Position numbers and translations under genes: made by a program. This document shows positions 2,371 through 45,480 of a stretch of DNA of 64,000 nt, in pieces. Positions within the stretch are counted from its first letter, which is position 1, and every line of letters starts with the position of its first letter. The stretch comes from Jatrophihabitans endophyticus (GTDB taxonomy: Bacteria; Actinomycetota; Actinomycetes; Mycobacteriales; Jatrophihabitantaceae), in contig NZ_FQVU01000004.1 in the NCBI RefSeq assembly GCF_900129455.1, forward strand, positions 310,001-374,000. The letters run 5' to 3'. A model generated the notes under the pieces. The model was not told where the DNA came from, ran no database searches, and saw only the letters and a program-made list of their open reading frames with translations.

Positions 2371-2500
2371 GTGCAGGGTCCTCTCGGATGCGGCATCGGT
2401 GCTCGGACGAACACTGGAAGTTCGGTGGCGGGCTTGTCCAGGGTGGCGACGGGGCGGGATGTGCGATGCCACAACGACGTCGTCGGCACCGCGTCCGGCA

Positions 2501-30350: not shown

Positions 30351-33300
30351 CCGGGTGAGCTCGCCGGCGAAGCCCGACCAGGCACGACGCGACGACACCG
30401 TGGCGACGACGGGTGGCGCCACGGGCGGCGCGACCCCGCCGCCTTTCTCGCTCGACGACCGGTTCGCCGTCGTCGAGGGCGAGGTCTACCTGACCGGCGT
30501 CCAGGCGCTGGTGCGGGTGCTGCTCGACCAGCGACGGCGCGACGCCCGCCTCGGGCTGCGCACCGCCGGCTTCGTCAGCGGCTACCCCGGCTCGCCGCTC
30601 GGCGGCGTCGACCTCGAGCTGAACCGCCGCGCCGCGCTGCTCGCCGAGCACGACATCCGCCACCAGCCCGGCCTGAACGAGGACCTCGCCGCCACCGCCA
30701 TCTGGGGCGCGCAGACCGCGGGGACGCTGCCCGCGCCGTTGTACGACGGCGTCTTCGGCATGTGGTATGGCAAGTCGCCCGGCGTCGACCGCACCGGCGA
30801 CGCGTTCCGGCACGGCAACATCGGCGGCGTCGCCGAGTACGGCGGTGTCCTCGCGGTGGCCGGCGACGACCCCGACGCGCGCTCGACGAACTTCCCGACC
30901 GACACCAACGGCGCGTTCCACGACTGGGCGATGCCGATCCTGTTCCCCGGCACCATGCAGGACGTCATCGACCTGGGGCTGCACGGCTACGCGCTGTCGC
31001 GCGCCGCCGGCGTGTGGGTCGCGTTCAAGATGGTCACCGACATCGCCGACGGCTCGGGGACGGCGCACGTCGGACCCGACCGCGTCGACCCGATCGTCCC
31101 GAGCGTCACCCTCGACGGCCGGCCGTTCCGGCCGCAGCTGCGCGTCGGCACCCCCGGCCCGCCCATGCGCGAGGCGGAGCGCGACCTGTTCTCCGCGCGC
31201 ACCGAGCTCGCCGCCCGCTACGTCGAGCTGAACGGGCTGAACCCGGTGGTCGTCGACCCGCCGGACGCCCGCATCGGCATCGTGGCCCCGGGCAAGGCGT
31301 ACACCGACCTCCGCGAGGCGCTCACCACCCTGGGGCTCGACCACGACGACCTGGTCCGCGCCGGCGTCCGCATCAAGAAGGTGTCCGCGCTGTCGCCGGT
31401 GGCCGCGTCCGAGTGGCGCGCGTTCGCCGCCGGACTGCAGGAGATCGTCGTCGTCGAGGAGAAGCGCCCGTTCCTGGAGCGCTTCCTGCGCGACGCGCTC
31501 TACGGGCAGCCCGCGGCGCCGGCCATCGTCGGCAAGCGCGACGAGCGCGACGAGGCCTTCCTGCCGATCTCCGGCGAGCTGACGGCGGCGCTCGTCGCCC
31601 GCGTCCTCGGGCCGCGACTGCACGACCGGTGGGGCCTCGACGTCCGGCTGCCGCAGGTGGCCCGGGAACGCACGCTGCTGCCGCTGTCGACGGCGCGTAC
31701 CCCGTACTTCTGCTCGGGCTGCCCCCACAACCGCTCGCTCGTCGTGCCCGAGGGCAGCCTGGTCGGCTCCGGCATCGGCTGCCACATCCTGCAGCTCGTC
31801 GTGCCGCGCCCCGAGTACGGCGAACTGGTCGGCTTCACGCAGATGGGCGCCGAGGGCGCGCAGTGGGTAGGCGCGTCGGCCTACACCGAGGCCGAGCACA
31901 TCTTCCAGAACATCGGCGACGGCACGTTCCACCACTCGGGCAGTCTCGGGCTGCGCTTCGCGGTGGCGAGCAAGGCCAACATCACCTACAAGCTGCTCTA
32001 CAACAGCGCGGTCGGCATGACCGGCGGCCAGGACGTCGAGGGCGCGATGACCGTGCCCGCGATCGCGGCGCTGCTCGAGGCCGAGGGCGTCGTGCGCACG
32101 ATCATCACCACCGACGACCCGAAGAAGTACCGCCGCACCAAGCTGCCGAAGAACGCGAGCGTGCGGCACCGCGACGACCTGGTCGAGGCGCAGGAGGAGC
32201 TCGCCGCGCTGACCGGCGTCACCGTGCTGATCCACGACCAGCAGTGCGCCGCCGAGAAGCGTCGGCTGCGCAAGCGGGCCAAGCAGGCCGAGCCCACGAC
32301 CCGCATCATGATCAACGACCGGGTGTGCGAGGGCTGCGGCGACTGCAACAGCAAGTCGCAGTGCCTGAGCGTGCAGCCCCTCGAGACCGAGTTCGGCCGC
32401 AAGACGACCATCCACCAGTCGTCGTGCAACCTCGACTACTCGTGCGCCAACGGCGACTGCCCCTCGTTCGTGTCCGTCGACGTCGAGAACGCGAAGAAGG
32501 CCGGCACGGCGGTACGGCTGCCGTCGGTGCCGCTGGTCGACCCGGTCGCGGTCGTGCCCACCGACGCGGTGAACATCCACATGACCGGCATCGGCGGCAC
32601 CGGTGTCGTCACCACCAGCCAGATCATGGCCACCGCCGCTGTGCTCGACGGGCACCAGGTGCGCAACCTCGACCTCACCGGGTCGTCGCAGAAGGCGGGG
32701 CCGGTCGTCTCGCAGCTGCAGCTGTTCACCGGCGACGTCGAGCCCGCGACGACCATCCCCGCCGGTGGCGCCGACGTCTTCCTCGCCTTCGACCTGCTGG
32801 CGTCGGTGAGCGAACCCAACCTCGCGAAGGGCGACCCGCAGCGCACCGTCGTGGTCGCGTCCTCGTCCGTCGCACCGACGGGCCAGATGGCCTACAACTC
32901 CGCGATCCCGCTGCCCTCCGTCGCCGAGCTGCGCACGATGCTCGACGGCGTCAGCCGGGCGACCGAGAACGTCTACGTCGACGCCGAGGCGCTGGCGCGG
33001 GCCGTCTTCGGCACCCACATGGTCGCCAACTCCATCCTGATCGGGGCCGCGCACCAGGCCGGCGCGCTGCCGCTGTCCACGTCGTCGCTCGAGCAGGCGA
33101 TCCGGCTCAACGGCACCGCGGTCGACAAGAACCTGGCCGCGTTCGCGTGGGGTCGGGCCGCCGTGCTCGACCCGGCGGGGACGGCGGAGGTCGTCGCGAA
33201 GGCCAAGGCCGCCGCGGCGCGGCAGGTGGCCGTCGACGAGCGCGCGGCCGCGCTGGCGGGCGGGGTCGAGGGCGTCGACGACGAGCTGCGGCGGTTGCTC

Positions 33301-33966
33301 ACCGTCCGCGTCGCCGACCTCATCGGCTTCCAGAACGAGCGGTACGCCCGCCGCTACCTGCGCGTGGTGCGCGCCGCGGTCGACGCCGAGCGGCGGGTGG
33401 CCGGGGCTCCCGGCGACCTCGCCCGCGCCGTCGCGGCGGGCCTGCACAAGCTGATGGCCTACAAGGACGAGTACGAGGTGGCCCGGCTGCACCTGCTCGA
33501 CTCCGCGCAGGACGCGGTGGTGACCGAGTTCGGCGAGGGCGCGGTCGCGTCGCTGCTGCTGCACCCGCCGGCGCTGCGTGCCCTCGGCATGAAGCGCAAG
33601 ATCAAGCTGGGACCGCGTTATACCCCGGTCATGCGGGGCCTGCGGGGCATGAAGGCCGTGCGTGGCACGCCGTTGGACGTCTTCGGGTACGCCGAGGTCC
33701 GGCGCGTCGAGCGGGCGCTCGTGCAGCAGTACACCGCGATGATCGAGTCCGGCCTGCGCGGCCTCACCGCCGAACGGCTGCCGGCGCTCACCGAGCTCGC
33801 GGCCGCGCCGCAGGACGTCCGCGGCTACGAGCACATCAAGCTGCGCAACGTCGCGGCCTACGTCGACCGCGTGCGCACGCTCAGCGCGGCGGCCGGGGCG
33901 GACCCGAGCCTGGGCGACGGGCCGCTCACGCGGCTCTCGGCCCGTCCGGCCGAGCAGCCGGGCTGA
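30328..33966 (+). CDS. Indolepyruvate ferredoxin oxidoreductase family protein (fused, TPP and Fe-S)
   Basis: This 1212-residue protein joins the TPP-dependent alpha part (about 1-640), an Fe-S segment with Cys667, Cys670, Cys673 and Cys679 and then Cys700, Cys706 and Cys711, the gamma-type domain (MTGIGGTGVVTTSQI, about 750-930) and a C-terminal DUF6537-like region. The family oxidatively decarboxylates 2-keto acids to acyl-CoA, passing electrons to ferredoxin. The GTG at 30328 overlaps the dehydrogenase gene by 23 bases and follows GAAGGAG; GTG 30355 is an alternative. Its place in an acyl-CoA operon suggests a 2-keto acid precursor or by-product, but the substrate is not evident. Confidence 0.9.
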   Translation: MTLSGSADRVSSPAKPDQARRDDTVATTGGATGGATPPPFSLDDRFAVVEGEVYLTGVQALVRVLLDQRRRDARLGLRTAGFVSGYPGSPLGGVDLELNRRAALLAEHDIRHQPGLNEDLAATAIWGAQTAGTLPAPLYDGVFGMWYGKSPGVDRTGDAFRHGNIGGVAEYGGVLAVAGDDPDARSTNFPTDTNGAFHDWAMPILFPGTMQDVIDLGLHGYALSRAAGVWVAFKMVTDIADGSGTAHVGPDRVDPIVPSVTLDGRPFRPQLRVGTPGPPMREAERDLFSARTELAARYVELNGLNPVVVDPPDARIGIVAPGKAYTDLREALTTLGLDHDDLVRAGVRIKKVSALSPVAASEWRAFAAGLQEIVVVEEKRPFLERFLRDALYGQPAAPAIVGKRDERDEAFLPISGELTAALVARVLGPRLHDRWGLDVRLPQVARERTLLPLSTARTPYFCSGCPHNRSLVVPEGSLVGSGIGCHILQLVVPRPEYGELVGFTQMGAEGAQWVGASAYTEAEHIFQNIGDGTFHHSGSLGLRFAVASKANITYKLLYNSAVGMTGGQDVEGAMTVPAIAALLEAEGVVRTIITTDDPKKYRRTKLPKNASVRHRDDLVEAQEELAALTGVTVLIHDQQCAAEKRRLRKRAKQAEPTTRIMINDRVCEGCGDCNSKSQCLSVQPLETEFGRKTTIHQSSCNLDYSCANGDCPSFVSVDVENAKKAGTAVRLPSVPLVDPVAVVPTDAVNIHMTGIGGTGVVTTSQIMATAAVLDGHQVRNLDLTGSSQKAGPVVSQLQLFTGDVEPATTIPAGGADVFLAFDLLASVSEPNLAKGDPQRTVVVASSSVAPTGQMAYNSAIPLPSVAELRTMLDGVSRATENVYVDAEALARAVFGTHMVANSILIGAAHQAGALPLSTSSLEQAIRLNGTAVDKNLAAFAWGRAAVLDPAGTAEVVAKAKAAAARQVAVDERAAALAGGVEGVDDELRRLLTVRVADLIGFQNERYARRYLRVVRAAVDAERRVAGAPGDLARAVAAGLHKLMAYKDEYEVARLHLLDSAQDAVVTEFGEGAVASLLLHPPALRALGMKRKIKLGPRYTPVMRGLRGMKAVRGTPLDVFGYAEVRRVERALVQQYTAMIESGLRGLTAERLPALTELAAAPQDVRGYEHIKLRNVAAYVDRVRTLSAAAGADPSLGDGPLTRLSARPAEQPG

Positions 33967-33979
33967 CCCCGCAAAACCA

Positions 33980-34029
33980 CCGCTTTTGGCGGCAGGACGC
34001 AGCATGCTGCGCCCTGCCGCCAAAAGCGG
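33980..34029. terminator. Long hairpin between the convergent IOR-type and mftD genes
   Basis: Perfect 17-base arms (CCGCTTTTGGCGGCAGG at 33980-33996, complement at 34013-34029) enclose a 16-base loop that itself contains the palindrome GCAGCATGCTGC. It lies between two convergent stops and serves as a bidirectional transcription terminator. The arms include TTTT/AAAA, so no separate U-tract is needed. Confidence 0.75.
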
Positions 34030-34030
34030 G

Positions 34031-35209
34031 TCAGGCCGGGACGCCCAGGGTGCGCGTGAAGCCGTCGGGCACCAGCACGTGCTCGGGCGTCAGCTCGGCG
34101 AGCGACGACACCCCGATGCCCATGAGCGCCGAGTCGATCCCCGAGCGCAGCACGTCGAGGACGTTCTCCACGCCGGCCTGGCCGTTGGCGCCGAGACCCC
34201 ACAGGTAGGCGCGGCCGATCATCACCGCGCGGGCTCCGAGCGCGAGGGCCTTGACGACGTCGCCGCCGCGGCGGACGCCGCCGTCGAGCAGCACCTCGAT
34301 GTCGTCGCCGACGGCCGCGGCGATCGAGGGCAGGACCCGGATGGTGGCCGGGGTGCCGTCGAGGTTGTTGCCGCCGTGGTTGGAGACCGACAGTGCGGTG
34401 GCACCGGCGTCGACGGCGCGCCGGGCCTCGTCCACCCGGGTGACGCCCTTGACCATGAACGGCCCGCCCCACTGCTCGCGCAGCCAGGCGACCTGCTCCC
34501 ACGTGGGCGGCGGCGTCTGCATCCACTCGCCGTAGACGCCGAAGAACGTCGGGGCGTCGGTACCGGGGTCCTGCATGTTCGGCACGGTGAGGTCCGGGAT
34601 GCGCTTGGTGCGCAGGAAGTCGCGCAGCCACCGCGGCCGGGTGAGGGCCTCGGGGGCGAAGCGCACGGCCTCCTTGAGGTCGATGCGCTCCGGGATGCGC
34701 GGGCTGCCCCAGTCGCGGCCCATCGAGAACGACCAGTCGAGCGTCGCGATGAGCCCGACCGCCCCGGCGGCGCGGGCGCGCTCCATGCGCTGGACGATCT
34801 GGTCCATGCTGCCCGACCAGTAGATCTGGAAGAACGTCTGCGGGTTGGCGGCGACGACCTCCTCGACCGGCTTGCTCGCGAAGCTGGACAGCCCCATCGC
34901 GGTGCCCCGGGCGGCGGCGGCCCGGGCCACCGCGACCTCGCCGTCGGGGTGGACGGCCTGCACGCCGGTGGGGGAGATGACGACGGGCAGCGCGATGTCC
35001 TGGCCCATGACGTGCGTGCCGAGGTCGCGGGTCGCGGACTGGCCCGCCGTGCGCGGGGCCCAGCCGAGCTCGCCGAAGGCGGCCGTGTTGTCCTCGATCG
35101 TGACGCCGCGCTCGGACCCGGCGACGAGCGCCGAGTAGACGGACCTGGGCAGCCGCTTCTGCGCGCGGCGCTGGGCCTCGGCGACGCTCTCGAACCACGG
35201 GTTGGCCAT
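34031..35209 (-). CDS. mftD: Mycofactocin maturase MftD, FMN-dependent alpha-hydroxy-acid dehydrogenase family
   Basis: This 392-residue flavoenzyme of the lactate dehydrogenase/glycolate oxidase family has Lys254, the catalytic His278 and the segment SNHGGNNLDGTPAT. GGNNLDG in place of the usual GGRQLD distinguishes MftD from lactate-oxidising relatives. In mycofactocin biosynthesis MftD oxidatively deaminates the MftE product to the redox-active alpha-keto amide (premycofactocin). Its ATG overlaps the mftF stop (TGATG). Here it is the last gene of the operon, whereas in mycobacteria it follows mftC. Confidence 0.92.
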   Translation of the reverse strand: MANPWFESVAEAQRRAQKRLPRSVYSALVAGSERGVTIEDNTAAFGELGWAPRTAGQSATRDLGTHVMGQDIALPVVISPTGVQAVHPDGEVAVARAAAARGTAMGLSSFASKPVEEVVAANPQTFFQIYWSGSMDQIVQRMERARAAGAVGLIATLDWSFSMGRDWGSPRIPERIDLKEAVRFAPEALTRPRWLRDFLRTKRIPDLTVPNMQDPGTDAPTFFGVYGEWMQTPPPTWEQVAWLREQWGGPFMVKGVTRVDEARRAVDAGATALSVSNHGGNNLDGTPATIRVLPSIAAAVGDDIEVLLDGGVRRGGDVVKALALGARAVMIGRAYLWGLGANGQAGVENVLDVLRSGIDSALMGIGVSSLAELTPEHVLVPDGFTRTLGVPA

Positions 35210-36687
35210 CAGGTGCTCCTTCGACGGGTGGGGACGGGCCGCGCCCGCACGGGCAGCAGCGGGGTGATCGTGCGGTGCCGGACGCAGCCGGCGACGACGC
35301 CGGCGCCGTACGCGCAGTCGTCGGCGACGGCGGCGGCGGCGAAGCGGACGGGGTCGAGCTCCGGGCGGCGGCGGCGCCACTCAGTGAGCGCCGGGGCGAG
35401 CAGCAGCGCGAGGGCGCTCGTCCTGGTCCGGCGGCGTGTGGTGGCGAGCAGCAGCGCGGGAGCGGCGAACTGCACCGCGTAGCGGGCCACGCCGAGCCCG
35501 GTCTGCCCGACGCCGCGGACGACGTGCGCGGGCCGGACGGCGGTCGCGGGCAGGCCGGCCGCCGCCACCGTCCTACGGGTCGCGACCAGCGCGCCGGCCG
35601 CGGCGCCGACGGCCGTCATCGGCCGGCGGGCGAGCAGGGCGACGACGGCCGTGGTGTACCAGGGGTGCACGACCAGGGGAGCCAGGTTGCGCGGATGCTT
35701 GCGTGCCAGCGGCGCCGCGGACGTGCCGTAGCGGAACCGGCGCGCGAGCAGGCCGCGCCAGGTGTGCGGATCGTGGTGGGTGACGGTCGTGGCGGGGCAG
35801 TAGCGCACCTGCCCGCCGTCGGCGAGCAGCCGCCACACGAGGTCGACGTCCTCGCCGTAGCGCAGCGCGGGGTCGAAGACGTGACCGGCGCGGGCGACGT
35901 CGCGCAGCGCCTCGGTGCGCGCGACGAGCACCGCGGTCGGCACGTAGGACACCGGCGTGTAGGGCGCGACCCGGGCGGGCTCGGGGCCGAGGTCGAGGCT
36001 GCCGCGGGCGCGGCTGTAGCGCGCCGACGCGCTCGCCCCGCTCTCGGCGCGGATGCGCGGTGCCGCCGCCGCGGTGAGCGGGTCGGCCAGCTGGGCGGCG
36101 AGCTCGTGCAGCGCCGCCGGTGTCGCCTCGGTGTCGCTGTCGACGAGCGCGACCAGCTCGGTGGCGACCGCGGCGAGGCCGGCGTTTCGGGCGGCTCCGG
36201 GGCCGCCGTTCACGGCGAGGCGCACCACGCGGGCGCCGTGGCGCGCGGCGACCCGCCGGACGGCCGCCGCGTCGGGCGAGGCATCGTCGACCACGACGAC
36301 GGGATGGACCCCGCCGAGCGCGGCGAGGGAGCGGTCGAGCTCGGCGGGCCGGTCGTGGACCGGGACCACGACCGTCAGCGACGGCACGCCGTCGCCCACC
36401 GGCGGTACGGGAGGCACCGGGTGCGCCATCCCAACGGCGACGAAGCGGCGGGCGACCAGCCCGCTCACCCGGCCCGCGACCGGCGCGCCGGAGCGCAGGT
36501 CCGCCCAGGCCTGCCGGCCGGCGGCCGAGAGCCGCAGCACGCGCGCCGGCTGTCCGCCGAACCACACCCCCGGCTCCACCTCCGTGGCGTCCGCGCCGGG
36601 GGTGACCCGGAACCCGTCGGGCAGCGGCACGTCCTCGACCGCGGGCCGGGCGGCGGTGGTGGTGGCCGCGGCCGCGGCGGTGCTCAC
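35209..36687 (-). CDS. mftF: Mycofactocin glycosyltransferase MftF
   Basis: This 492-residue family 2 glycosyltransferase has the opening strand LTVVVPVHDRP, the nucleotide-sugar residues VVDDASPD and the DxD-type LVDSDTE, and an acceptor region YGEDVDLVWRL. Hydrophobic C-terminal segments (about 365-470) suggest membrane association. A roughly 100-residue N-terminal domain with GVWFGGQPARVLRLS is typical of MftF. The enzyme adds glucose units to premycofactocin. The GTG start overlaps the SDR stop. Confidence 0.92.
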   Translation of the reverse strand: MSTAAAAATTTAARPAVEDVPLPDGFRVTPGADATEVEPGVWFGGQPARVLRLSAAGRQAWADLRSGAPVAGRVSGLVARRFVAVGMAHPVPPVPPVGDGVPSLTVVVPVHDRPAELDRSLAALGGVHPVVVVDDASPDAAAVRRVAARHGARVVRLAVNGGPGAARNAGLAAVATELVALVDSDTEATPAALHELAAQLADPLTAAAAPRIRAESGASASARYSRARGSLDLGPEPARVAPYTPVSYVPTAVLVARTEALRDVARAGHVFDPALRYGEDVDLVWRLLADGGQVRYCPATTVTHHDPHTWRGLLARRFRYGTSAAPLARKHPRNLAPLVVHPWYTTAVVALLARRPMTAVGAAAGALVATRRTVAAAGLPATAVRPAHVVRGVGQTGLGVARYAVQFAAPALLLATTRRRTRTSALALLLAPALTEWRRRRPELDPVRFAAAAVADDCAYGAGVVAGCVRHRTITPLLPVRARPVPTRRRST

Positions 36688-37466
36688 AGCGCCAACCCGC
36701 CGTCGACCGGCACGACGGCGCCCGTGGTGCCGCTCGCGGCCGGGCTCGCCAGGAAGGCCAGGACGGCCGCGACCTCGCCCGGGTCGAGCAGCCGTCCGAT
36801 GGGCTGCTGCGCGGCGAACGGGGTGGCGTCGGGCAGTGCGTAGAGTCGCGCGCTCTCGGCCAGGATGTCGGTGTCGGTCGAGCCCGGGCTCACGGCGTTG
36901 GCGGTGACGCCGGTCGGCCCCAGCTCGACGGCGAGCGCACGGATCGCGGCGGCGACGCCGGCCTTCGCGGCGCAGTAGGCCGCGAGCAGCGGGAGGCCGC
37001 GCGTCGCCGCCGCGGAGGCGACGGCGAGGAAGCGCCCGGAGCGCGGCGCGGGTCGCCGCAGCAGCGCGGGCACCGCGACGCGGGCGAGGTTGAGCGTGCC
37101 GGTCAGGTTGACGTCCACGACGGCACGTTCCTGCGCGAGCGGCACGTCGGGCTGCGGCACGCCCCCGGCGATGACGCCGGCGACGGCGACGGCCGCGTCC
37201 AGGCCGCCGAAGCGCTCCTCGGCCAGGGCGACGGCGGCGGCCAGCCCGTCGACGTCGCGGACGTCGGCCACGTGTGCGACGGCCTGCTCGCCGGCGGCGG
37301 CGACGACGGCGTCGAGTTGGGAGCGCGACGCCAGGGGATAGGGCAGGGCGGGATCGTCGGTGCACGCGTCGACCGCCACCACCTGCCAGCCCGCCGCGGC
37401 GAGGGCGGCGACGGTGGCCGCGCCGATGCCGCGGGCGGCGCCGGTGACCACCGCGACGCGGCTCAT
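36684..37466 (-). CDS. Mycofactocin-cluster SDR family oxidoreductase
   Basis: This 260-residue SDR has TGAARGIG at about 9-16, an altered NNAG region (VAVAGVIAGG) and an active site in SAAATRGLPLLAAYCAAKAG (YxxxK kept). It is embedded in the operon between mftE and mftF with ATGA-type overlaps on both sides, so it is co-translated with the biosynthetic enzymes. SDRs found inside mycofactocin loci are thought to be users or partners of the cofactor. Whether it takes part in biosynthesis or is a client cannot be told from sequence. Confidence 0.85.
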   Translation of the reverse strand: MSRVAVVTGAARGIGAATVAALAAAGWQVVAVDACTDDPALPYPLASRSQLDAVVAAAGEQAVAHVADVRDVDGLAAAVALAEERFGGLDAAVAVAGVIAGGVPQPDVPLAQERAVVDVNLTGTLNLARVAVPALLRRPAPRSGRFLAVASAAATRGLPLLAAYCAAKAGVAAAIRALAVELGPTGVTANAVSPGSTDTDILAESARLYALPDATPFAAQQPIGRLLDPGEVAAVLAFLASPAASGTTGAVVPVDGGLAL

Positions 37467-38224
37467 CCGGCTCGTCCGCTGGTGTGGATCGGGTCGTCGC
37501 GCGACCCGCTCGGGTCGGTGGCCCGTGGCCGGGCATCCGGCGCGAAGACCCGATCGACGAAGGCGACGAGCGCGCGTTCGAGACCGGCCAGCGTGGCCGC
37601 GCCCTCCTGCGCCGAGGCGCCGGTCGGGTCGCCGAGGACGCCGTTGGCACTCACCGCACGGACGCCGCCCGCGCGCAGCAGGGGCAGGACCTCGGCGATC
37701 GGTCGGGTGTCGCCCGGCCGTGCCGACGCGAGGTCGACGCGGCGGGCGTCCAACGCGAGCTGCAGGGACGTCTCGGTGCGGCCGGCGTGGGCGTCGACGT
37801 ACCCGGTGGGACTCCACGCCTGCACCACCCGCCCCTCCGCGCGCAGCAGCGTGACCGCGCGCGTCAGCGGGGCGGCGTTGCCGCCGTGCCCCGACACGAA
37901 CAGCAGCCGGCCGAACGTGAGCGACGCGGAGCGGCCGAGCTCGACGAGCAGGTGCTCCAGCGCGTCCTGACCCAGGGACAGCGTGCCGGCGAAGCCGTCG
38001 TGCTCGCCGCTGGAGCCGTAGGGGACGGCCGGTGCGACCACCACCGCCGGCCGCGCGGCGCCGAGCGCCGCGCACAGCGTCCCGGCGACGTCGGTGTCGG
38101 TCGACAGCGGCAGGTGCGGGCCGTGCTGCTCGGTGGCGCCGAGCGGCACCGCGAGGATCGACCCGGCCGCGGCGCGCTCGCGCACCTGCGGCCAGGTGAG
38201 GTCGCCGAGCAGCGTGGCGGTCAC
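37463..38224 (-). CDS. mftE: Mycofactocin precursor peptidase MftE (creatininase family)
   Basis: This 253-residue metal-dependent amidohydrolase has the creatininase motif GATEQHGPHLPLSTDT (29-44; Glu32, His34 and the Asp pair are metal ligands), then GSSGEHDGFAGTLS and SGHGGNAAPL. MftE cleaves the MftC-modified peptide to release the C-terminal Val-Tyr-derived cyclic product. The GTG start overlaps the mftC stop by three bases. The C-terminal 30 residues are a variable, charged extension. Confidence 0.93.
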   Translation of the reverse strand: MTATLLGDLTWPQVRERAAAGSILAVPLGATEQHGPHLPLSTDTDVAGTLCAALGAARPAVVVAPAVPYGSSGEHDGFAGTLSLGQDALEHLLVELGRSASLTFGRLLFVSGHGGNAAPLTRAVTLLRAEGRVVQAWSPTGYVDAHAGRTETSLQLALDARRVDLASARPGDTRPIAEVLPLLRAGGVRAVSANGVLGDPTGASAQEGAATLAGLERALVAFVDRVFAPDARPRATDPSGSRDDPIHTSGRAG

Positions 38225-39456
38225 GCCGGCCGGAAGCCCGCGAGCGGGTTCTCGTCGCACGCCCGGTCGGCCGCGGCCGGCGGGGTCAGCGGGCGCGACG
38301 TCGAGAGGGTCACCGTGACCGGGGTGCGCCGCGGCGTGCGGGTCGTGCGGTGCGAGTGGTCGAGCGACGGCTTCGGCGCACCGGTCCGGTCGACGAGGGT
38401 GAGCATGCGCTCGCCGTGGCCCTTGACGCACTCCGGGTCGGGGCCGTCGAGGGGCAGGCCGGTGAAGAACTTCGCGGCCATGCAGCCACCGCGGCACGAG
38501 TCGAAGGCCGAGCAGCTCGAGCACGCGCCGCCGGTCTGCGGCTGACGCAGCTCGGTGAACAGCTCGGAGGTCTGCCACACGCCGCGGAAGCCGTCGGTGT
38601 CGCGGACGTTGCCGGCGAGGAAGTTCTCGTGGATCGCGAACGGGCACGCGTACACGTCGCCGACGGGGTCGACGAGGCACACGACCCGCCCGGCGCCGCA
38701 CAGGTTGAGCCCGGGCATCGCGCCGTCGCCGAAACCGGCCAGGTGGAAGAAGGAGTCGCCGGTCAGCACGTTCTCGCCGTGCGCGACGAGCCAGTCGTAG
38801 AGCTCGCGCTGCTGCTCCGCGGTGACGTGCAGGTCGTCCCACACGTCGGCGCCGCGGCCCGACGGCCGCAGCCTGGTTATGCGCAGTTGTGCGTCATATC
38901 GGTCGGCGATCGCCTTGAAGGCGTCGAGCTGGCCCACGTTCTCACGCGTCATGACGACGGAGATCTTGAAGCCGCGAAAGCCCGCCGCCTTCAGATTCTC
39001 CATCGCGCGGATGGCCGTGTCGTAGGAACCGGGGCCGCGCACGACGTCGTTGATCTCGGCGGTGGCGCCGTCGAGGGAGATCTGGACGTCGACGTAGTCC
39101 GACGCGGCCAGCTGCGCCGCGACCGTCGGCGTGATCTTGACGCCGTTGGTGGAGAACTTGACCCCGACGTGGTGCTCGGTGGCGTAGTCGACGAGCTCCC
39201 AGAAGTCCGGCCGGACCGTGGGCTCGCCGCCGCCGATGTTGACGTAGAAGATCTGCATCCGCTCGAACTCGTCGATCAGCGCCTTGCACTCGGCGGTCGA
39301 CAGCTCGCGCGGGTCGCGGCGGCCCGAGGACGACAGGCAGTGCACGCACGAGAGGTTGCAGGCGTAGGTGAGCTCCCACGTCAGGCAGATGGGCGCGTCC
39401 AGGCCGAACTGGAACTGCTCGACGAGCGGGAGCGGGGCGTCGGACAGTGCGGTCAT
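38221..39456 (-). CDS. mftC: Mycofactocin radical SAM maturase MftC
   Basis: This 411-residue radical SAM enzyme has the cluster motif CNLSCVHC (Cys33, Cys37 and Cys40). A SPASM-type C-terminal domain carries further cysteines (CGAGRVVC, YACPF, then CSSCSAFDSCRGGC) for auxiliary Fe-S clusters. MftC decarboxylates the C-terminal Tyr of MftA and links it to the preceding Val. Its ATG overlaps the mftB stop. The last roughly 50 residues after the SPASM region are a low-complexity Thr/Arg/Pro tail that seems longer than usual. Confidence 0.95.
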   Translation of the reverse strand: MTALSDAPLPLVEQFQFGLDAPICLTWELTYACNLSCVHCLSSSGRRDPRELSTAECKALIDEFERMQIFYVNIGGGEPTVRPDFWELVDYATEHHVGVKFSTNGVKITPTVAAQLAASDYVDVQISLDGATAEINDVVRGPGSYDTAIRAMENLKAAGFRGFKISVVMTRENVGQLDAFKAIADRYDAQLRITRLRPSGRGADVWDDLHVTAEQQRELYDWLVAHGENVLTGDSFFHLAGFGDGAMPGLNLCGAGRVVCLVDPVGDVYACPFAIHENFLAGNVRDTDGFRGVWQTSELFTELRQPQTGGACSSCSAFDSCRGGCMAAKFFTGLPLDGPDPECVKGHGERMLTLVDRTGAPKPSLDHSHRTTRTPRRTPVTVTLSTSRPLTPPAAADRACDENPLAGFRPA

Positions 39457-39728
39457 GCGGGCGTCCTCTCGCAGATCATGCGTGACGTGGCGAGCGTGCC
39501 GAGGGCGGCGCGGTAGCGGGGGACCTCGGCGTCCGCGACCCCGGCGGCGACGCACGCGTCGCGGGCGGTGTCGAAGTCGGCGAGCCCCTGCAGCACGCGC
39601 AGCAGGGTGGGGTCCTTGAGGAAGGACAGCCGGCGGGTGCCGAAGTGGTACAGCAGCGCCCCGAAGCGTTCCGGGCGTACCGACACCTGGTCGTGCACCC
39701 GCCAGGCGGTGTCCAGGTCGAACGACAT
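39453..39728 (-). CDS. mftB: Mycofactocin peptide chaperone MftB
   Basis: This 91-residue protein matches the MftB family: MSFDLDTAWRVHDQVSVRPE at the start, GALLYHFGTRRLSFLKDPTLL in the middle. It is a RiPP-recognition-element protein that binds the MftA leader and presents it to MftC. It lies 12 bases after mftA and overlaps mftC by four bases. No strong ribosome site is visible, so translation may be coupled to mftA. Confidence 0.93.
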   Translation of the reverse strand: MSFDLDTAWRVHDQVSVRPERFGALLYHFGTRRLSFLKDPTLLRVLQGLADFDTARDACVAAGVADAEVPRYRAALGTLATSRMICERTPA

Positions 39729-39740
39729 CGGTCGTGCGGT

Positions 39741-39866
39741 CTAGTAGACGCCGCACATGCCGTCGATGGAGACCTCTTCGACGAGGACGTCCTCGACGGG
39801 TGCCTCGGGGACGGCCGCGGTCTCGGTGGTCTCGTCGGTGACGGTGGTGGTGGTCTCGTCGGTCAT
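39741..39866 (-). CDS. mftA: Mycofactocin precursor peptide MftA
   Basis: This is a 41-codon gene too short for routine calling. It begins MTDETTTTVTDET and ends IDGMCGVY, the conserved C-terminus of mycofactocin precursors; the final Val-Tyr is converted into the cofactor. The ATG at 39866 is preceded by AAGGGA at suitable distance. The leader is acidic and Thr-rich, suited to MftB binding. It is the first gene of the minus-strand operon, 12 bases before mftB. Confidence 0.95.
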   Translation of the reverse strand: MTDETTTTVTDETTETAAVPEAPVEDVLVEEVSIDGMCGVY

Positions 39867-39897
39867 CGTCTGGGTCCCTTCGGATCGGGCGGGGTGA

Positions 39898-39920
39898 GTT
39901 GCGGCACCCGGTGTCGCAAC
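39898..39920. promoter_or_regulatory. Operator-like palindrome 1 between mftA and mftR
   Basis: Arms GTTGCGGCACC and GGTGTCGCAAC surround a central C, an imperfect 23-base inverted repeat with one mismatched pair. It lies 32 bases upstream of the mftA start. With the second copy 39 bases away it is the probable binding site of the adjacent TetR-type MftR. Confidence 0.7.
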
Positions 39921-39936
39921 GTGGCAGCAGACTACG

Positions 39937-39959
39937 GTTGCGGCATCCGGTGCCGCAAT
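39937..39959. promoter_or_regulatory. Operator-like palindrome 2 between mftA and mftR
   Basis: GTTGCGGCATCC followed by GGTGCCGCAAT repeats the pattern of 39898-39920 (19 of 23 positions identical). The centre-to-centre distance is 39 bases. It lies 26 bases before the mftR start codon, so occupancy would block mftR as well as the mftA promoter. Confidence 0.7.
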
Positions 39960-39984
39960 AGGTCACGTCGGCTATCGTCGACCG

Positions 39985-40635
39985 GTGCCGGAGACGGGCC
40001 CCGCGAGGCCGGGCCGCAAGCCGACGACCAATCCCGAGGTCATCGAGGCGGCCGCCCTCCGGCTGTTCGCCGAGCACGGCTACGCGGCCACGACCGTCGA
40101 CATGATCGCGGCCGAGGCGGGCACCAGTCGCCGGACGTTCTTCCGCTGGTTCGACACCAAGGCCGGCACGCTGTGGCGCGAGTTCGACACCGAGGTCGCC
40201 AACCTGAGCGCGCAGCTCGCGGCGGTCCCGCAGGACGTGCCGGCCATGGCCGCGGTCCGCCGGGCGGTCGTCGCGGTCAACCACTACCGGGCCGCGGACG
40301 TCGGGGAGCTGCGGGCGCGGATGACGCTCATCGGCTCCGAGCCGGAGCTCGCGGCCAGTGCCGCGGTCCACTACGACGCGTGGGAGCGGGCGGTGAGCGA
40401 CTTCGTCGCCCGGCGCGCGGGGCTCGCCGCCGACTCGCTCTACCCGCTCGCCGTCGGTCGGGCGACGCTCGCGGCCTGCCGGGCCGCCTTCGACCGCTGG
40501 ATCGCCAACGCCGACGCCGACCTGACGGTCTACCTCGACGCCGCGCTGGCCGCCCTCGCCGACGGGTTCGCCGACGCGGTCCTCGTCGCGGAGCCGACCG
40601 GCCCGCGGCGGCGCCGTCGCGCCCCGCGCCGCTGA
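39985..40635 (+). CDS. mftR: Mycofactocin system TetR-type regulator MftR
   Basis: This 216-residue TetR-family repressor has the MftR-typical GRKPTTNPEVIEAAALRLF opening and a helix-turn-helix ending SRRTFFRWFDTKAGTLWREFD. It is divergent from mftA. The GTG start lacks a clear ribosome site and may be leaderless or nearly so. MftR proteins are known to repress the mft operon and to respond to long-chain acyl-CoA. The two palindromes in the intergenic region are the expected targets. The C-terminus is a basic Arg-rich tail. Confidence 0.9.
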   Translation: MPETGPARPGRKPTTNPEVIEAAALRLFAEHGYAATTVDMIAAEAGTSRRTFFRWFDTKAGTLWREFDTEVANLSAQLAAVPQDVPAMAAVRRAVVAVNHYRAADVGELRARMTLIGSEPELAASAAVHYDAWERAVSDFVARRAGLAADSLYPLAVGRATLAACRAAFDRWIANADADLTVYLDAALAALADGFADAVLVAEPTGPRRRRRAPRR

Positions 40636-40700: not shown

Positions 40701-40733
40701 CAGCAAGGTTGACCGAAAAGCGAGGTGCAGGGG

Positions 40734-41174
40734 ATGACGGCAGTGCAGCAGCGGGCGGTCCCGATCCGCGTCATGCTGGCCAAGATCGGGCTCGACGGGC
40801 ACGACCGCGGGGTCAAGGTGGTCGCGCGGACGCTGCGTGACGCCGGCATGGAGGTCATCTACACCGGGCTGCACCGCAGCCCCGACCAGGTCGTCGACGC
40901 CGCCGTGCAGGAGGACGTCGACGTGCTCGGCGTCAGCCTGCTCTCCGGTGCGCACATGCCGATCTTCGGCCGGATCTTCGCCCTGCTCGACGAGCTGCCC
41001 GAGCCCCATCGCTTCGTGCTGCTGGCCGGCGGGGTCATGCCCGAGGAGGACGAGGCCGAGCTGCAGCGCCTGGGTGTCGCCGCCGTCCTCGGGCAGGACA
41101 CCACGCCCGAGACCATCGTCGCGACCGTGGAGCGGTTGGTCGACGAGCGCGCCGGCGAGAGCGCCGTGCGATGA
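40734..41174 (+). CDS. hcmB: 2-hydroxyisobutyryl-CoA mutase small, cobalamin-binding subunit
   Basis: This 146-residue B12-binding domain has the base-off motif DGHDRG (Asp21, His23, Gly26), with His23 the lower cobalt ligand, and later LLSGAHM and LLAGGVMPEED for the nucleotide tail. Its length fits the separate small subunits of isobutyryl-CoA and 2-hydroxyisobutyryl-CoA mutases. The ATG at 40734 is chosen; CGAGG lies eight bases upstream. Its stop overlaps the ligase ATG. The hcm assignment rests on the large subunit at 43649. Confidence 0.86.
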   Translation: MTAVQQRAVPIRVMLAKIGLDGHDRGVKVVARTLRDAGMEVIYTGLHRSPDQVVDAAVQEDVDVLGVSLLSGAHMPIFGRIFALLDELPEPHRFVLLAGGVMPEEDEAELQRLGVAAVLGQDTTPETIVATVERLVDERAGESAVR

Positions 41175-42628
41175 CGGTGACGGCGACCCGCATGGAGCAG
41201 TGGACGTGGCCGCCGGCCTACGACGACGACTACCGCCCGGCCGACGACGCGACGCACTGGTTCCCGGTGCGCGAGACCATGGCTCCCGACCGACGCGACG
41301 AGCTGCTGCTCGCCCGCATCCAGGAGGTCATGGCCTACGCCTGGAGCACGTCGCCGTTCTACCGCGCCAAGTGGGGCGCGGCCGGGCTGGAGCCCGGCGA
41401 CGTGCGCACCCTCGAGGACTTCGAGCGGGTCCCGGTCGTGCACAAGGACGAGCTGCGCGCCGACCAGGCCGAGCACGAGCCGTACGGCAGCTACCTGTGC
41501 GTGCCGCCGCGCGACGTCCGCCACGTCAACGGGACGTCGGGGACGACCGGGCGCCCCACCGCGTTCGGCGTGAACGGTCGCGACTGGCGCAGCATCGCCA
41601 ACGCGCATGCACGGGTCATGTGGGCCATGGGCATCCGGCCGAGCGACACCGTGCTGATCGGCTCGCCGCTGTCGCTCTACTGGGGCTCGTGGGGCGCCTA
41701 CATCGGCGCCGAACGCCTAGGGGCCACGGTCTTCCCGTTCGGCGCCGGCACGGCGGGACAGAGCTTGCGGACCGTCCACTGGATGCGGCAGATGGGCGTG
41801 ACGGTCTTCTACGGCACGCCGTCCTACGCGCTGCACCTGGCCGAGGTGGCCCGCGACGCGGGCATCGACCCGCGCCACCTCGGCGTGCGGCGGATGTTCT
41901 TCTCCGGCGAGCCCGGCGCGAGCGTGCCGTCGATCCGCGAGCGCATCGCGACCGTCTTCGACACCCGCGTCTACGACTCCGGCAGCATGGCCGAGGTCAG
42001 CCCGTGGATGCACCTCGGCGCCGGCTCCGACGAGCCGGGCGTGCTGTGCTGGCAGGACCTCGTCCACACCGACGTGTGCGACCCGACGACGCTGCGCCGA
42101 CTGCCCTACGGCAGCGAGGGCACGCCGGTCTACACGACGCTCGAACGCACGGCGCAGCCGATGATCCGGCTGCTGTCGAACGACCTCACCCGCTGGGAGG
42201 CGCCGTCGGCCGAGCGGGGCCGGACGTACCCGTTCCTGCCCCGCGGCATCTACGGCCGCATCGACGACATGTTCGTGGTCCGCGGCGAGAACATCTACCC
42301 GAGCGCGATCGACGAGGTCGTGATGCGTTCGGACAACTACGGTGGCGAGCACCGGATCGTCATCAGCCGCGACGGGGCGATGGACGAGCTCGTCGTGCAG
42401 GTCGAGCACGACGGCGGGCTCGGCGGCGAGGGCGGGCTGACGCAGTGGTGCGCGACGATCTCCGGCCGGCTGCGCACCGTCCTCGGGGTCGGCGCGAAGG
42501 TGCTGCCCGTCGCGCCGCAGACCTTCGCCCGCACCGAGTTCAAGGCCCGGCGGGTGATCGACGACCGCGACCTGTTCCGCTCGCTGGAGGCGAGCACAGC
42601 CGGGGCGAGCACGGACGGGGTGTCCTGA
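41171..42628 (+). CDS. Phenylacetate-CoA ligase-type acyl-CoA ligase, probable 2-hydroxyisobutyrate-CoA ligase
   Basis: This 485-residue AMP-forming ligase of the PaaK family has the phosphate-binding loop GTSGTTGRPT (121-130), YDSGSMAEVSPWMH around the adenine site, and GRIDDMFVVRGENIYPSAID as the hinge, followed by the small C-terminal domain with TEFKARR. It activates a carboxylate to its CoA thioester. It lies between the two mutase subunit genes, as ligases of this kind do in known 2-hydroxyisobutyrate operons. Substrate assignment is inference from that context. Confidence 0.83.
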   Translation: MTVTATRMEQWTWPPAYDDDYRPADDATHWFPVRETMAPDRRDELLLARIQEVMAYAWSTSPFYRAKWGAAGLEPGDVRTLEDFERVPVVHKDELRADQAEHEPYGSYLCVPPRDVRHVNGTSGTTGRPTAFGVNGRDWRSIANAHARVMWAMGIRPSDTVLIGSPLSLYWGSWGAYIGAERLGATVFPFGAGTAGQSLRTVHWMRQMGVTVFYGTPSYALHLAEVARDAGIDPRHLGVRRMFFSGEPGASVPSIRERIATVFDTRVYDSGSMAEVSPWMHLGAGSDEPGVLCWQDLVHTDVCDPTTLRRLPYGSEGTPVYTTLERTAQPMIRLLSNDLTRWEAPSAERGRTYPFLPRGIYGRIDDMFVVRGENIYPSAIDEVVMRSDNYGGEHRIVISRDGAMDELVVQVEHDGGLGGEGGLTQWCATISGRLRTVLGVGAKVLPVAPQTFARTEFKARRVIDDRDLFRSLEASTAGASTDGVS

Positions 42629-43593
42629 TGCCGGCCCCGACGCCCGCGGTCGCGGCGCCGTCGATCGAGGAGACGGTGACGCGCCTGCGACGCCGGGAGG
42701 CCGGGGCACTCGCGCGCGCGCTCACCGCGGTCGAGCGCCGCGCCCCCGGCGTCGACGACCTGCTCGCCCGGCTGCACCCCGACACCGGCCGCGCCCACGT
42801 GCTGGGCGTGACCGGCCCCGCCGGCAGCGGCAAGAGCACGCTCGTCACCCGGCTGACCCAGCAGTACCGGGCCCGGGGCCGGACGGTCGCGGTGCTCGCC
42901 GTCGACCCGTCCAGCACGTACAGCGGCGGCGCGATCCTCGGCGACCGCATCCGGATGTCGGACCTCTCCGGCGACGCGGGTGTCTACATCCGCTCCCTCG
43001 CCACCCGCGGGGCGATGGGCGGGCTGTCCCGCGCGGTGCTCGACGGCATCACCGTCCTCGACGCCGCCGGCTTCGACGCCGTCGTGCTGGAGACCGTCGG
43101 GGTCGGCCAGGCCGAGGTGGACGTCATCAGCGTCGCCCACACCGTCCTCGTCGTCAGCGTGCCCGGCCTCGGCGACGACGTGCAGGCGATCAAGGCCGGG
43201 CTGCTCGAGATCGCCGACGTGCACGTGGTGAACAAGGCCGACCGCCCCGGCGCCGACCAGACCTACGCCGAGCTGCGCGACATGCTGCGGCTGTCCCACC
43301 GCCGGCCGCGGCAGTGGAACGTGCCCATCGTCAGGACGACGTCGACCCGGGGCGAGGGCGTGGCCGAGCTCGCCGACGAGTGCGACACGCACCTGGCCTG
43401 GCTCGACGAGCACGGCGGCCGGGCCGAGCGGGAGAGACGCAACGCCGCGACCCGCGTCCGGTGGGCGGCCGAGGAGCTCGTGCTCGACCGGCTCCGCCCG
43501 GGGCACGGCGCCTTCGACGCGCACGTCGACGCCGTCGTCGCCCGCACCATCGATCCGCGCGCGGCCGCCGCCGAGCTCGTCCACCACCTGTGA
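42628..43593 (+). CDS. MeaB/ArgK-type G-protein chaperone of the acyl-CoA mutase
   Basis: This 321-residue G3E GTPase has Walker A GPAGSGKST (63-71), DPSSTYSGGAILGDRIRM, ETVGVGQAEVDV as the switch region and NKAD for guanine specificity. Such proteins load and protect adenosylcobalamin in partner mutases; the paralogue in 2-hydroxyisobutyrate operons is called MeaH. The ATG overlaps the ligase stop (TGATG). The large mutase subunit follows 55 bases later. Confidence 0.92.
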   Translation: MPAPTPAVAAPSIEETVTRLRRREAGALARALTAVERRAPGVDDLLARLHPDTGRAHVLGVTGPAGSGKSTLVTRLTQQYRARGRTVAVLAVDPSSTYSGGAILGDRIRMSDLSGDAGVYIRSLATRGAMGGLSRAVLDGITVLDAAGFDAVVLETVGVGQAEVDVISVAHTVLVVSVPGLGDDVQAIKAGLLEIADVHVVNKADRPGADQTYAELRDMLRLSHRRPRQWNVPIVRTTSTRGEGVAELADECDTHLAWLDEHGGRAERERRNAATRVRWAAEELVLDRLRPGHGAFDAHVDAVVARTIDPRAAAAELVHHL

Positions 43594-43648
43594 GCCGACC
43601 GCAGGCACCCCGCAGCATCCGCAGCACACCGCAACGAGAGAGGCACCC

Positions 43649-45364
43649 ATGGCAGAGGACGGCACGACCCCGGACCGTGACCGGCTGAGCAGCGACGAGC
43701 TCGTGGCGGCGGTCGCGGCCCAACTCACGGCGTGGGAGGCCGACGAGCTCGCCGGCTTCACGGCCCGCGCGCCGGAGAGTCGGACCGACTACGTGAGCGG
43801 CAGCGGCCTGCCCGTGCAACGCGTCTACACGCCGGCCGACCTGCCGGGGAGCTGGCAGGAGATCGGACTGCCCGGCCAGTACCCCTACACCCGCGGGCCG
43901 TACCCGACGATGTACCGCGGCCGGACCTGGACGATGCGCCAGATCGCCGGCTTCGGGCAGGCGGAGGAGACCAACGAGCGGTTCCGCTACCTCATCAAGC
44001 AGGGGCAGACGGGGCTGTCGGTCGACTTCGACATGCCGACGCTGATGGGGCTCGACAGCGACGACGCCATGAGCCTCGGCGAGGTCGGCCGCGAGGGCGT
44101 CGCCATCGACACGCTGCCCGACATGGCGGCGCTCTTCGACGGCATCGACCTGGAGCACATCTCGGTGTCGATGACGATCAACCCCTCGGCGTGGATCCTG
44201 CTCGCCATGTACGTGGCGGTCGCCGAGGACCGCGGGTACGACCTGGACAAGCTGTCCGGGACGGTGCAGAACGACATCCTCAAGGAGTACGTCGCCCAGA
44301 AGGAGTGGGTGTTCCCCGTGCACCCCAGCATGCGCATCGTGCGTGACTGCATCGTCTACTGCGCCGAGCACATGGCGCGCTACAACCCGGTCAACATCAG
44401 CGGCTACCACATCAGCGAGGCCGGCGCGAACGCCGTGCAGGAGGTCGCGTTCACGATGGCGATCACCCGGGCCTACGTCGAGGACGTCGTGGCGACCGGG
44501 GTGGACGTCGACGAGTTCGCGTCGCGGTTGTCGTTCTTCTTCGTCAGCCAGGCCGACTTCTTCGAGGAGGTCGCGAAGTTCCGGGCGGTGCGCCGCTACT
44601 ACGCGAAGATGATGCGCGAACGCTTCGGCGCCACGAAGCCGAACTCGATGCGGCTGCGGATGCACACCCAGACCGCGGCCGCGACGCTCACCAAGCCGCA
44701 GCCGATGAACAACATCATCCGCACGACGCTGCAGGCGCTGTCGGCCGTGCTCGGCGGCACGCAGTCGCTGCACACCAACGGCCTGGACGAGGCGTACACG
44801 ATCCCGAGCGAGCAGGCGATGAAGATCGCGCTGCGCACGCAGCAGATCATCGCCGACGAGACGAACGTGACGCAGGTGATCGATCCCCTCGGCGGCTCGT
44901 ACTACGTCGAGGCGCTGACCGACGAGATCGAGCGCGGCATCGAGGACTACATGACGCGTGTCGAGGAGATGGGCGGTGTCGAGGCCGCGATCGAGCAGGG
45001 CTTCTTCCAGCGCGAGATCTCCGACACCGCGTACGGCTACGCCAAGCGCAAGGCCAGTGGCGACCGTCCGGTCATCGGCGTCAACCGGTACGTGGACGAG
45101 GACCCGGGCGAGCCGATCGAGACCCACAAGCTCGACCCGGAGTCCGAGCAGCGCCAGATCAACCGCCTCAAGCAGACCCGCGAGGACCGCGACCAGGAGC
45201 GGGCCGGACGCGCCCGTGCCGAACTGCTGCGCGTCGCACGCGATCCCGCGGCCAACCTCATGCCGGCGACCATCGAGGCCGTCCGCGCGCACCTGTCGAT
45301 GGGCGAGATCACCGGCGCACTGCGGGAGGTGTTCGGCAGCTACACCGAGACCCCCGTCTTCTGA
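43649..45364 (+). CDS. hcmA: 2-hydroxyisobutyryl-CoA mutase large subunit
   Basis: This 571-residue TIM-barrel acyl-CoA mutase subunit lacks the B12 domain, which is encoded separately at 40734. Substrate-site residues distinguish it. Ile99 (WTMRQIAGFG) stands where methylmalonyl-CoA mutase has Tyr89 and isobutyryl-CoA mutase has Phe. Asp126 (GLSVDFDMPT) replaces the usual Ala. Gln217 (VAQKEW) replaces Arg207, and His254 is kept. The Ile/Asp pair, 27 apart, is the signature of HcmA (Ile90/Asp117). The enzyme interconverts 2-hydroxyisobutyryl-CoA and 3-hydroxybutyryl-CoA. The ATG start follows GAGAGAGG. Confidence 0.92.
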   Translation: MAEDGTTPDRDRLSSDELVAAVAAQLTAWEADELAGFTARAPESRTDYVSGSGLPVQRVYTPADLPGSWQEIGLPGQYPYTRGPYPTMYRGRTWTMRQIAGFGQAEETNERFRYLIKQGQTGLSVDFDMPTLMGLDSDDAMSLGEVGREGVAIDTLPDMAALFDGIDLEHISVSMTINPSAWILLAMYVAVAEDRGYDLDKLSGTVQNDILKEYVAQKEWVFPVHPSMRIVRDCIVYCAEHMARYNPVNISGYHISEAGANAVQEVAFTMAITRAYVEDVVATGVDVDEFASRLSFFFVSQADFFEEVAKFRAVRRYYAKMMRERFGATKPNSMRLRMHTQTAAATLTKPQPMNNIIRTTLQALSAVLGGTQSLHTNGLDEAYTIPSEQAMKIALRTQQIIADETNVTQVIDPLGGSYYVEALTDEIERGIEDYMTRVEEMGGVEAAIEQGFFQREISDTAYGYAKRKASGDRPVIGVNRYVDEDPGEPIETHKLDPESEQRQINRLKQTREDRDQERAGRARAELLRVARDPAANLMPATIEAVRAHLSMGEITGALREVFGSYTETPVF

Positions 45365-45480
45365 CCGGACGGCCGGATCTCCTCGCGTACCCGTTCCACC
45401 CGCACCACTCGCACAACCACCGCGGACCGGCGACCGCCGGCTCGTCAGTTCGTCGCGTCGTCGTGAGCCCGGGAGAACCC

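Follow-up and report, generated by a model that had tools for sequence, protein, structure and literature searches.

The 64,000-nucleotide stretch of Jatrophihabitans endophyticus DNA analyzed here (contig NZ_FQVU01000004.1, positions 310,001 to 374,000; hereafter the window) carries eight mycofactocin (MFT) genes. mftR, on the forward strand, diverges from a reverse-strand run mftA-B-C-E-SDR-F-D that extends from 39866 down to 34031 and in which a short-chain dehydrogenase/reductase (SDR) gene is embedded between mftE and mftF. This embedded SDR, and its occurrence in genomes that lack the mycofactocin dehydrogenase gene mftG, are the subject of this report. Each of the eight proteins passed its NCBIfam cut-off in a profile scan, MftR narrowly, by 0.9 bits; MftC and MftE were scanned in versions 1 and 2 codons shorter, respectively, than the starts given here.

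39985..40635, + strand: mftR, TetR-type regulator (TIGR03968 225.8 bits, cut-off 224.9; Pfam TetR_C_14, 'MftR C-terminal domain')
39938..39958, + strand: MftR operator-like dyad TTGCGGCA-N5-TGCCGCAA, with the exact mycobacterial consensus inside
39899..39919, + strand: a further operator-like dyad, differing from the longer dyad at one position (chance expectation 0.03 in 64 kb)
39741..39866, - strand: mftA, precursor peptide of 41 residues ending VSIDGMCGVY (TIGR03969 47.4 bits, cut-off 25; Pfam MftA)
39453..39728, - strand: mftB, peptide chaperone (TIGR03967 105.1 bits, cut-off 33)
38221..39456, - strand: mftC, radical SAM/SPASM maturase (TIGR03962 657.3 bits, cut-off 265; Radical_SAM and SPASM domains)
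37463..38224, - strand: mftE, creatininase-type peptidase (TIGR03964 277.4 bits, cut-off 172)
36684..37466, - strand: embedded mycofactocin-coupled SDR of 260 residues (SDR_subfam_2 / SDR_subfam_4; TIGR04504, NF040491)
35209..36687, - strand: mftF, glycosyltransferase (TIGR03965 341 bits, cut-off 280)
34031..35209, - strand: mftD, FMN-dependent pre-mycofactocin synthase, the last gene (TIGR03966 698.9 bits, cut-off 470.85)
33980..34029, strand not assigned: 25-nt inverted repeat that immediately follows mftD, in the interval to the convergent gene 30328-33966

The MftA, B, C, D, E, and F proteins are each over their curated cut-offs, and their genes are contiguous except for the embedded SDR; mftA is the sole match to the MftA family in the genome at E ≤ 0.001 and mftD the single match at E ≤ 1e-100. 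A first-pass annotation of the window had proposed a complete set of core genes, a 41-codon mftA ending in IDGMCGVY, and the order A-B-C-E-SDR-F-D, all of which are borne out by the profile scores and by direct reading of the strands. It had also described every junction as overlapping, which is true of five of the six: the overlaps are 4 bases at B/C, C/E, E/SDR, and SDR/F and 1 base at F/D (ATGA between mftB and mftC, GTGA between mftC and mftE and between the SDR gene and mftF), but mftA and mftB are separated by 12 bases.

The locus is complete and best read as an MFT operon of a conserved layout without mftG, probably regulated by MftR. Both operator-like dyads lie between mftR and mftA, and the predicted operator at 39939-39957 is an exact match to T-N2-GGCA-N5-TGCC-N2-A, given in the available part of PMC8728441 as the operator consensus of mycobacterial MftR; 0.03 matches are expected by chance per 64 kb, and one more occurs in the window at 31768-31786, within gene 30328-33966. 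In a dyad search with arms of at least 6, the window's dyad was absent from the other loci tried that share its mftE-SDR-mftF-mftD arrangement, which have other perfect dyads or none, so that the generality of the two window sites is not established. The inverted repeat after mftD, with arms 96% complementary and a predicted fold of -49.9 kcal/mol (z -7.6), is probably the operon terminator.

The locus resembles the mycobacterial mft cluster (mftR, mftA-F, mftG) in having all the biosynthetic genes, a divergent mftR, and a dyad of the operator consensus. It departs from the mycobacterial order A-B-C-D-E-F, in which mftD directly follows mftC (as read from the locus tags of a mycobacterium in the available part of PMC5264612), in that mftD comes last, the SDR gene stands between mftE and mftF, and no mftG over cut-off is found in the locus or the genome. 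The absence of mftG from the window had been noted in the first-pass annotation, and a search of the genome (98.5% complete) with TIGR03970 likewise gave no MftG over cut-off, the models for the Gordonia and Dietzia forms (TIGR04542 and NF038210) not being searched. The best TIGR03970 score in the genome, 345.6 against a cut-off of 387.45, belongs to a choline dehydrogenase (betA 813.2, cut-off 732.1).

Family and distribution of the embedded SDR

The embedded SDR scores 340.3 bits with TIGR04504 (cut-off 250) and 305.5 bits with NF040491 (cut-off 265), passing both SDR_subfam_2 and SDR_subfam_4, and no tested feature sets it apart from these families. Its score with the client model TIGR03971 is under cut-off (183.8 versus 300). 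Alignment places the catalytic residues at Ser151-Tyr164-Lys168. As a component of an mft cluster the SDR has lost its claim to novelty, since NCBI already models the family as 'mycofactocin-coupled SDR', and the available parts of Haft 2011 (PMC3023750) and PMC5264612 describe an SDR gene, of the TIGR03971 type, as often being part of mft clusters. We found no functional study of the SDR_subfam_2 or SDR_subfam_4 models in the literature searched; one such SDR is merely named in a table in the accessible part of PMC11852219.

Genomes were scanned for SDR_subfam_4 (SDR4) by scoring only the best first-look candidates, up to 28 per genome, and a miss is therefore not proof of absence. SDR4 was over cut-off in 34 of 80 genomes with mftC and in 0 of 80 genomes of the same order without it (no match at E ≤ 1e-75), the scan of the former serving as positive control for that of the latter, and 14 control genomes contained no SDR4 over cut-off. 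A script placed the SDR4 gene directly 5' of mftF (≤ 250 bases) in 41 of 47 loci, a count that rose to 43 after two cases had been read; one of the four exceptions has mftF on the opposite strand, and in three no mftF was found in the available stretch. This pairing spans five layouts (E-S-F-D, D-E-S-F, E-S-F, S-F-E, and D-S-F-E, where S is the SDR) and was seen again in all four loci added later. There is thus good support for counting the SDR among those coupled to MFT, for its restriction to genomes with mftC in the sample, and for its travelling with mftF. The earlier suggestion that it is tied to the cofactor genes survives in this form, by its restriction to mftC genomes among those sampled and by its constant partner. 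SDRs are very numerous, with 20 matches listed in the window genome, and could in principle enter such a locus by a chance insertion unlinked to mycofactocin, but the split of 0/80 against 34/80 and the conserved mftF pairing contradict this, and we give it hardly any credence.

A role for SDR4 as a substitute for MftD was considered and rejected, because 27 of the 34 SDR4 genomes, that of the window included, also have MftD over cut-off (best 20 first-look candidates scored). Three genomes of family f3 (G019, G080, and G087; loci L125, L127, and L128) have an mft cluster whose two halves diverge from each other; the SDR, itself diverged (score 271-279), is once more directly 5' of mftF.

For gene order we used named loci, the 80 that ranked highest of 577 confirmed candidates by similarity to the window MftC, and 77 additional stretches; given this ranking, the share of any layout among the 80 is not a population frequency. 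Mapping of the mft genes revealed the full C-E-SDR-F-D order in 8 of the best 80 loci, from two Amycolatopsis, a Dactylosporangium, a Jatrophihabitans metagenome-assembled genome (MAG), a Pseudonocardiales MAG, two Nocardia, and a Frankiaceae MAG, the two Nocardia loci having an extra 0.4-0.55 kb between mftE and the SDR gene. Two loci are one gene short of it (mftE not found in L011, mftF not found in L014). Within the window's own family (f1), five of eight sampled mftC genomes have the full order, two are cut by contig ends yet consistent with it, and one has no SDR4 match. The order is therefore found in Jatrophihabitantaceae, Pseudonocardiaceae, Micromonosporaceae, Nocardiaceae, and Frankiaceae, with an incomplete run in L014 (Streptomycetaceae) and L065 (Streptosporangiaceae). 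The arrangement had been put forward as new, with a comparison of gene order named beforehand as the test that could refute this; the named loci and further stretches rule novelty out, the order with its SDR being common in relatives and present in other actinobacterial families. What the window shows is a variant order of a known system, one that it shares with genera both near and more remote.

All full-order loci have their SDRs in a single clade, of 18 rows (SH-aLRT 99), that takes in L011, L014, L065, and two cut stretches as well. The MftF tree likewise groups the E-S-F-D loci in one clade, except for the partial row L007 (12% filled); five rows of this tree are under half filled, mostly from split matches reduced to one piece. 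Both of these trees recover the group; the tree of MftC (17 rows, 6 changes) does not. The MftC tree aside, it looks as if the C-E-SDR-F-D layout arose once and travels as a block.

The genes flanking the locus in the window are not common to other mft stretches (158 stretches including the window, many of them short). On the forward strand at 40725-47172 lies an operon of a B12-binding subunit, a PaaK-like CoA ligase, a MeaB GTPase, a mutase large subunit, and an LctP permease; the mutase scores 765 bits against 2-hydroxyisobutyryl-CoA mutase (4R3U) and a far lower 446 bits against methylmalonyl-CoA mutase, so that this is probably an operon for 2-hydroxyisobutyrate degradation (for context, see the available part of PMC7176365). 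Among the 158 stretches the mutase has one hit outside the window (494 bits, at the edge of stretch L031), and there is no such hit for the ligase, MeaB, or B12-binding protein. The idea that the SDR and the adjoining B12-mutase operon act as one functional unit is unsupported, as the flanks differ in other mft stretches. A zinc alcohol dehydrogenase at 1252-2472 (- strand), whose best model is that of the NDMA-dependent alcohol dehydrogenases (TIGR03989, 392.6, under the cut-off of 440), is possibly mycofactocin-dependent. The gene at 30328-33966 (+ strand), convergent with mftD, encodes an indolepyruvate ferredoxin oxidoreductase family protein.

Substrate loop, NAD site, and absence of MftG

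When comparison is restricted to pairs of equal NAD-region identity (0.55-0.65), with five SDRs of intermediate score left out, identity over the substrate loop (residues 194-232) is 0.61 in 51 SDR4s as opposed to 0.28 in 85 other SDRs of mft loci. P-G-S-T at 194-197, L202, and Y209 are invariant in 51/51 SDR4s; the catalytic Ser, Tyr, and Lys are present in every one, and so are Asp-33 and Tyr-43 of the NAD region. The best PDB sequence match of the window SDR is 3PGX. In a Foldseek search with its AlphaFold model (pLDDT 92.3), the first nine rows were chains of 3S55, 3UVE, 5EJ2, and 3T7C, four mycobacterial SDRs of a class described in the available part of PMC5264612 as NAD-locked, with a non-exchangeable NAD. 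With the carveol-dehydrogenase-type nicotinoproteins of TIGR03971 (3PGX, 3S55) the embedded SDR shares Ser-Tyr-Lys, the fold, and apparently most of the NAD-covering insertion. It differs from them in its score under their cut-off, in a strongly conserved substrate loop of its own, and in a loop region shorter than that of 3PGX.

SDR4 and MftG were never over cut-off together in the genomes examined. The MftG scans, subject to the same reservation about misses as that for SDR4, scored the best first-look candidates only (16 in the 80-genome set, 34 in the named set). Among the 80 mftC genomes, 34 have SDR4, 29 have MftG, none has both, and 17 have neither; by genus (42), the corresponding counts are 18, 17, 0, and 7. 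In a set of 32 named genomes, MftG was over cut-off in 0/16 with SDR4 versus 13/16 without SDR4 in the mft locus, and the same contrast is seen within Nocardia (0/3 versus 5/5) and within Streptomyces (0/3 versus 3/3). In this named set SDR4 was assigned by our own profile score, all 16 proteins also matching NF040491 at E ≤ 1e-70, and "without SDR4" means none in the mft stretch examined, the rest of those 16 genomes not having been searched. MftG was thus over cut-off in none of 50 SDR4 entries (34 plus 16, at least one counted twice, as named genome L039 duplicates G125 of the 80-genome sample). A 2 × 2 Fisher test of the exclusion gives 3e-10, a value that ignores kinship. In 10 of the 29 MftG-positive genomes, coordinates put the gene no more than about 13 kb from mftC, and the other 19 over-cut-off genes may fall outside true MftG by the clade definition in the available part of PMC11778925; applying this stricter definition leaves the overlap with SDR4 at 0.

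Some SDR4 loci also contain an mft electron transfer flavoprotein (ETF). L101 has, in its gap from mftC to E-SDR-F, genes for an mft old yellow enzyme (OYE), mft ETF alpha, and mft ETF beta, all over cut-off, as well as for a FixC-like flavoprotein that stays under its cut-off and for a small protein, rich in cysteine and without a family hit, that we read as ferredoxin-like; L113 has an OYE in the corresponding gap. The ETF alpha model mft_etfA is over cut-off in 9 of the 80 genomes, all nine without an over-cut-off MftG and eight with SDR4, and is not over cut-off in the window genome (144 bits, cut-off 240). SDR4 therefore occurs both with and without another possible electron exit. Four loci (L100, L101, L103, and L104, from G009, G061, G103, and G137, with family f9 relatives) have SDR4 and ETF and no MftD. 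Seven of the nine mft_etfA genomes, one of them 100% complete, have no MftD match at E ≤ 1e-100, two of the seven being incompletely scored; in such genomes another enzyme may make pre-mycofactocin. In the literature searched, which did not cover subscription papers, we found no paper pairing mycofactocin with "electron transfer flavoprotein", none joining mycofactocin, MftG, and SDR, and none joining mycofactocin and Jatrophihabitans.

Possible roles of the embedded SDR

We put at about one in two the probability that the embedded SDR is a mycofactocin-dependent enzyme with captive NAD and a single fixed, common substrate, serving bacteria without mftG as a house-keeping point where electrons enter or leave MFT; such a point is the likeliest form of the proposal, ahead of a niche catabolic alcohol dehydrogenase. 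The SDR appears to keep the extra loop over NAD and would thereby hold its NAD. Substrate and MFT would bind at the same nicotinamide, and hydride would pass between substrate, bound NAD, and MFT within one pocket. The enzyme would then be an entry or an exit for the electrons of the MFT pool, in either direction. The sameness of the substrate loop across lineages and families suggests that the substrate is a common compound. Reduced mycofactocin, according to the available part of PMC7491314, has a hydroxyl at C-3 of the lactam in place of the amine. This makes it one half of a secondary alcohol/ketone couple, the kind of pair that Ser-Tyr-Lys SDRs interconvert.

Several observations weigh against this proposal. 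The control set for the loop comparison mixes paralogues, which inflates loop divergence and exaggerates the contrast, and Asp-33 and Tyr-43 are also usual in the other mft-locus SDRs (84/85 and 73/85). Relative to 3PGX the NAD-loop region has one residue fewer just before Tyr-43 and three fewer after it, so that an intact NAD-covering loop is not established. The VIA-align Z scores of ordinary SDRs come within about 2 of those of the NAD-locked ones, and with so small a lead the fold alone is not decisive for captive NAD. The window genome has a second MFT-coupled SDR outside the mft locus (L090, C4:247852-248661, TIGR03971 339.5 bits), and the embedded one is therefore not the sole candidate client. 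The genomes with neither SDR4 nor MftG (17/80) and the eight in which SDR4 accompanies the mft ETF module, a second possible electron exit, count on the same side. Finally, the exclusion follows lineages: the mftC tree (75 of the 80 genomes, five without a fetched mftC being left out) offers only three (starred branches) to six independent contrasts, and MftG is unchanged in most of the three that are well supported. These are too few independent events for proof, which the exclusion of SDR4 and MftG does not reach.

It is nearly an even chance that this exclusion reflects the exchange of two whole types of mft locus between lineages with no function swapped. Such exchange would yield the same pattern from the few contrasts available, and it would fit both the single clade of E-S-F-D SDRs spread over many families, as for a block moving as a unit, and the flanking genes that the window does not share with other loci. 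It accounts less well for the three Nocardia, which fall in two separate SDR clades, and the three Streptomyces that have SDR4 without an over-cut-off MftG while all their sampled congeners without SDR4 in the mft locus have MftG, a contrast suggesting that something may make MftG dispensable.

A simpler role, as an ordinary MFT client that oxidizes one common alcohol and is made together with the cofactor, the absence of mftG being unrelated, is a serious if lesser contender. The nearest solved relatives are client-type carveol dehydrogenases, and TIGR03971-like SDRs (so labeled from their low SDR4-profile scores) adjoin mftC in other mft loci. The constant partner of SDR4 is instead mftF, and not the start or end of the cluster, and its substrate loop varies far less than that of other mft-locus SDRs.

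The same partner could point to a biosynthetic or tailoring enzyme acting with MftF, for instance by setting the aglycone's redox state ahead of glycosylation or following it. The pairing in five layouts, the E-S-F-D SDRs and MftFs that each form one clade (one partial MftF row apart), and a single fixed substrate loop all speak for such an enzyme, and in M. smegmatis glycosylation is early and interacts with the MftD step (available part of PMC7491314). M. smegmatis nevertheless makes glycosylated MFT, as the same source reports, from a cluster drawn without an SDR in the available part of PMC11778925, and SDR4 is found in 0/12 genomes of family f7 (probably Mycobacteriaceae), which have mftG beside mftC; we consider a tailoring role improbable.

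The proposal of a house-keeping electron point has a narrower form, in which SDR4 replaces MftG as a captive-NAD oxidoreductase that oxidizes reduced mycofactocin (MFTH2, itself a secondary alcohol) at the expense of a second common acceptor. We regard this form as unlikely. MftG, a GMC flavoenzyme, is of an unrelated family with a different cofactor, and the SDR would at most occupy an analogous place in the pathway. The available part of Graca et al. (2025, PMC11778925) puts the share of mftC genomes without MftG at about 25% and leaves open whether any other enzyme takes over its task; replacement by SDR4, if true, would explain how these genomes cope. The gene order itself is of little importance. 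Interest lies in what the embedded SDR does in bacteria without mftG, and the SDR provides a specific, testable candidate marker of mftC genomes that lack this gene.

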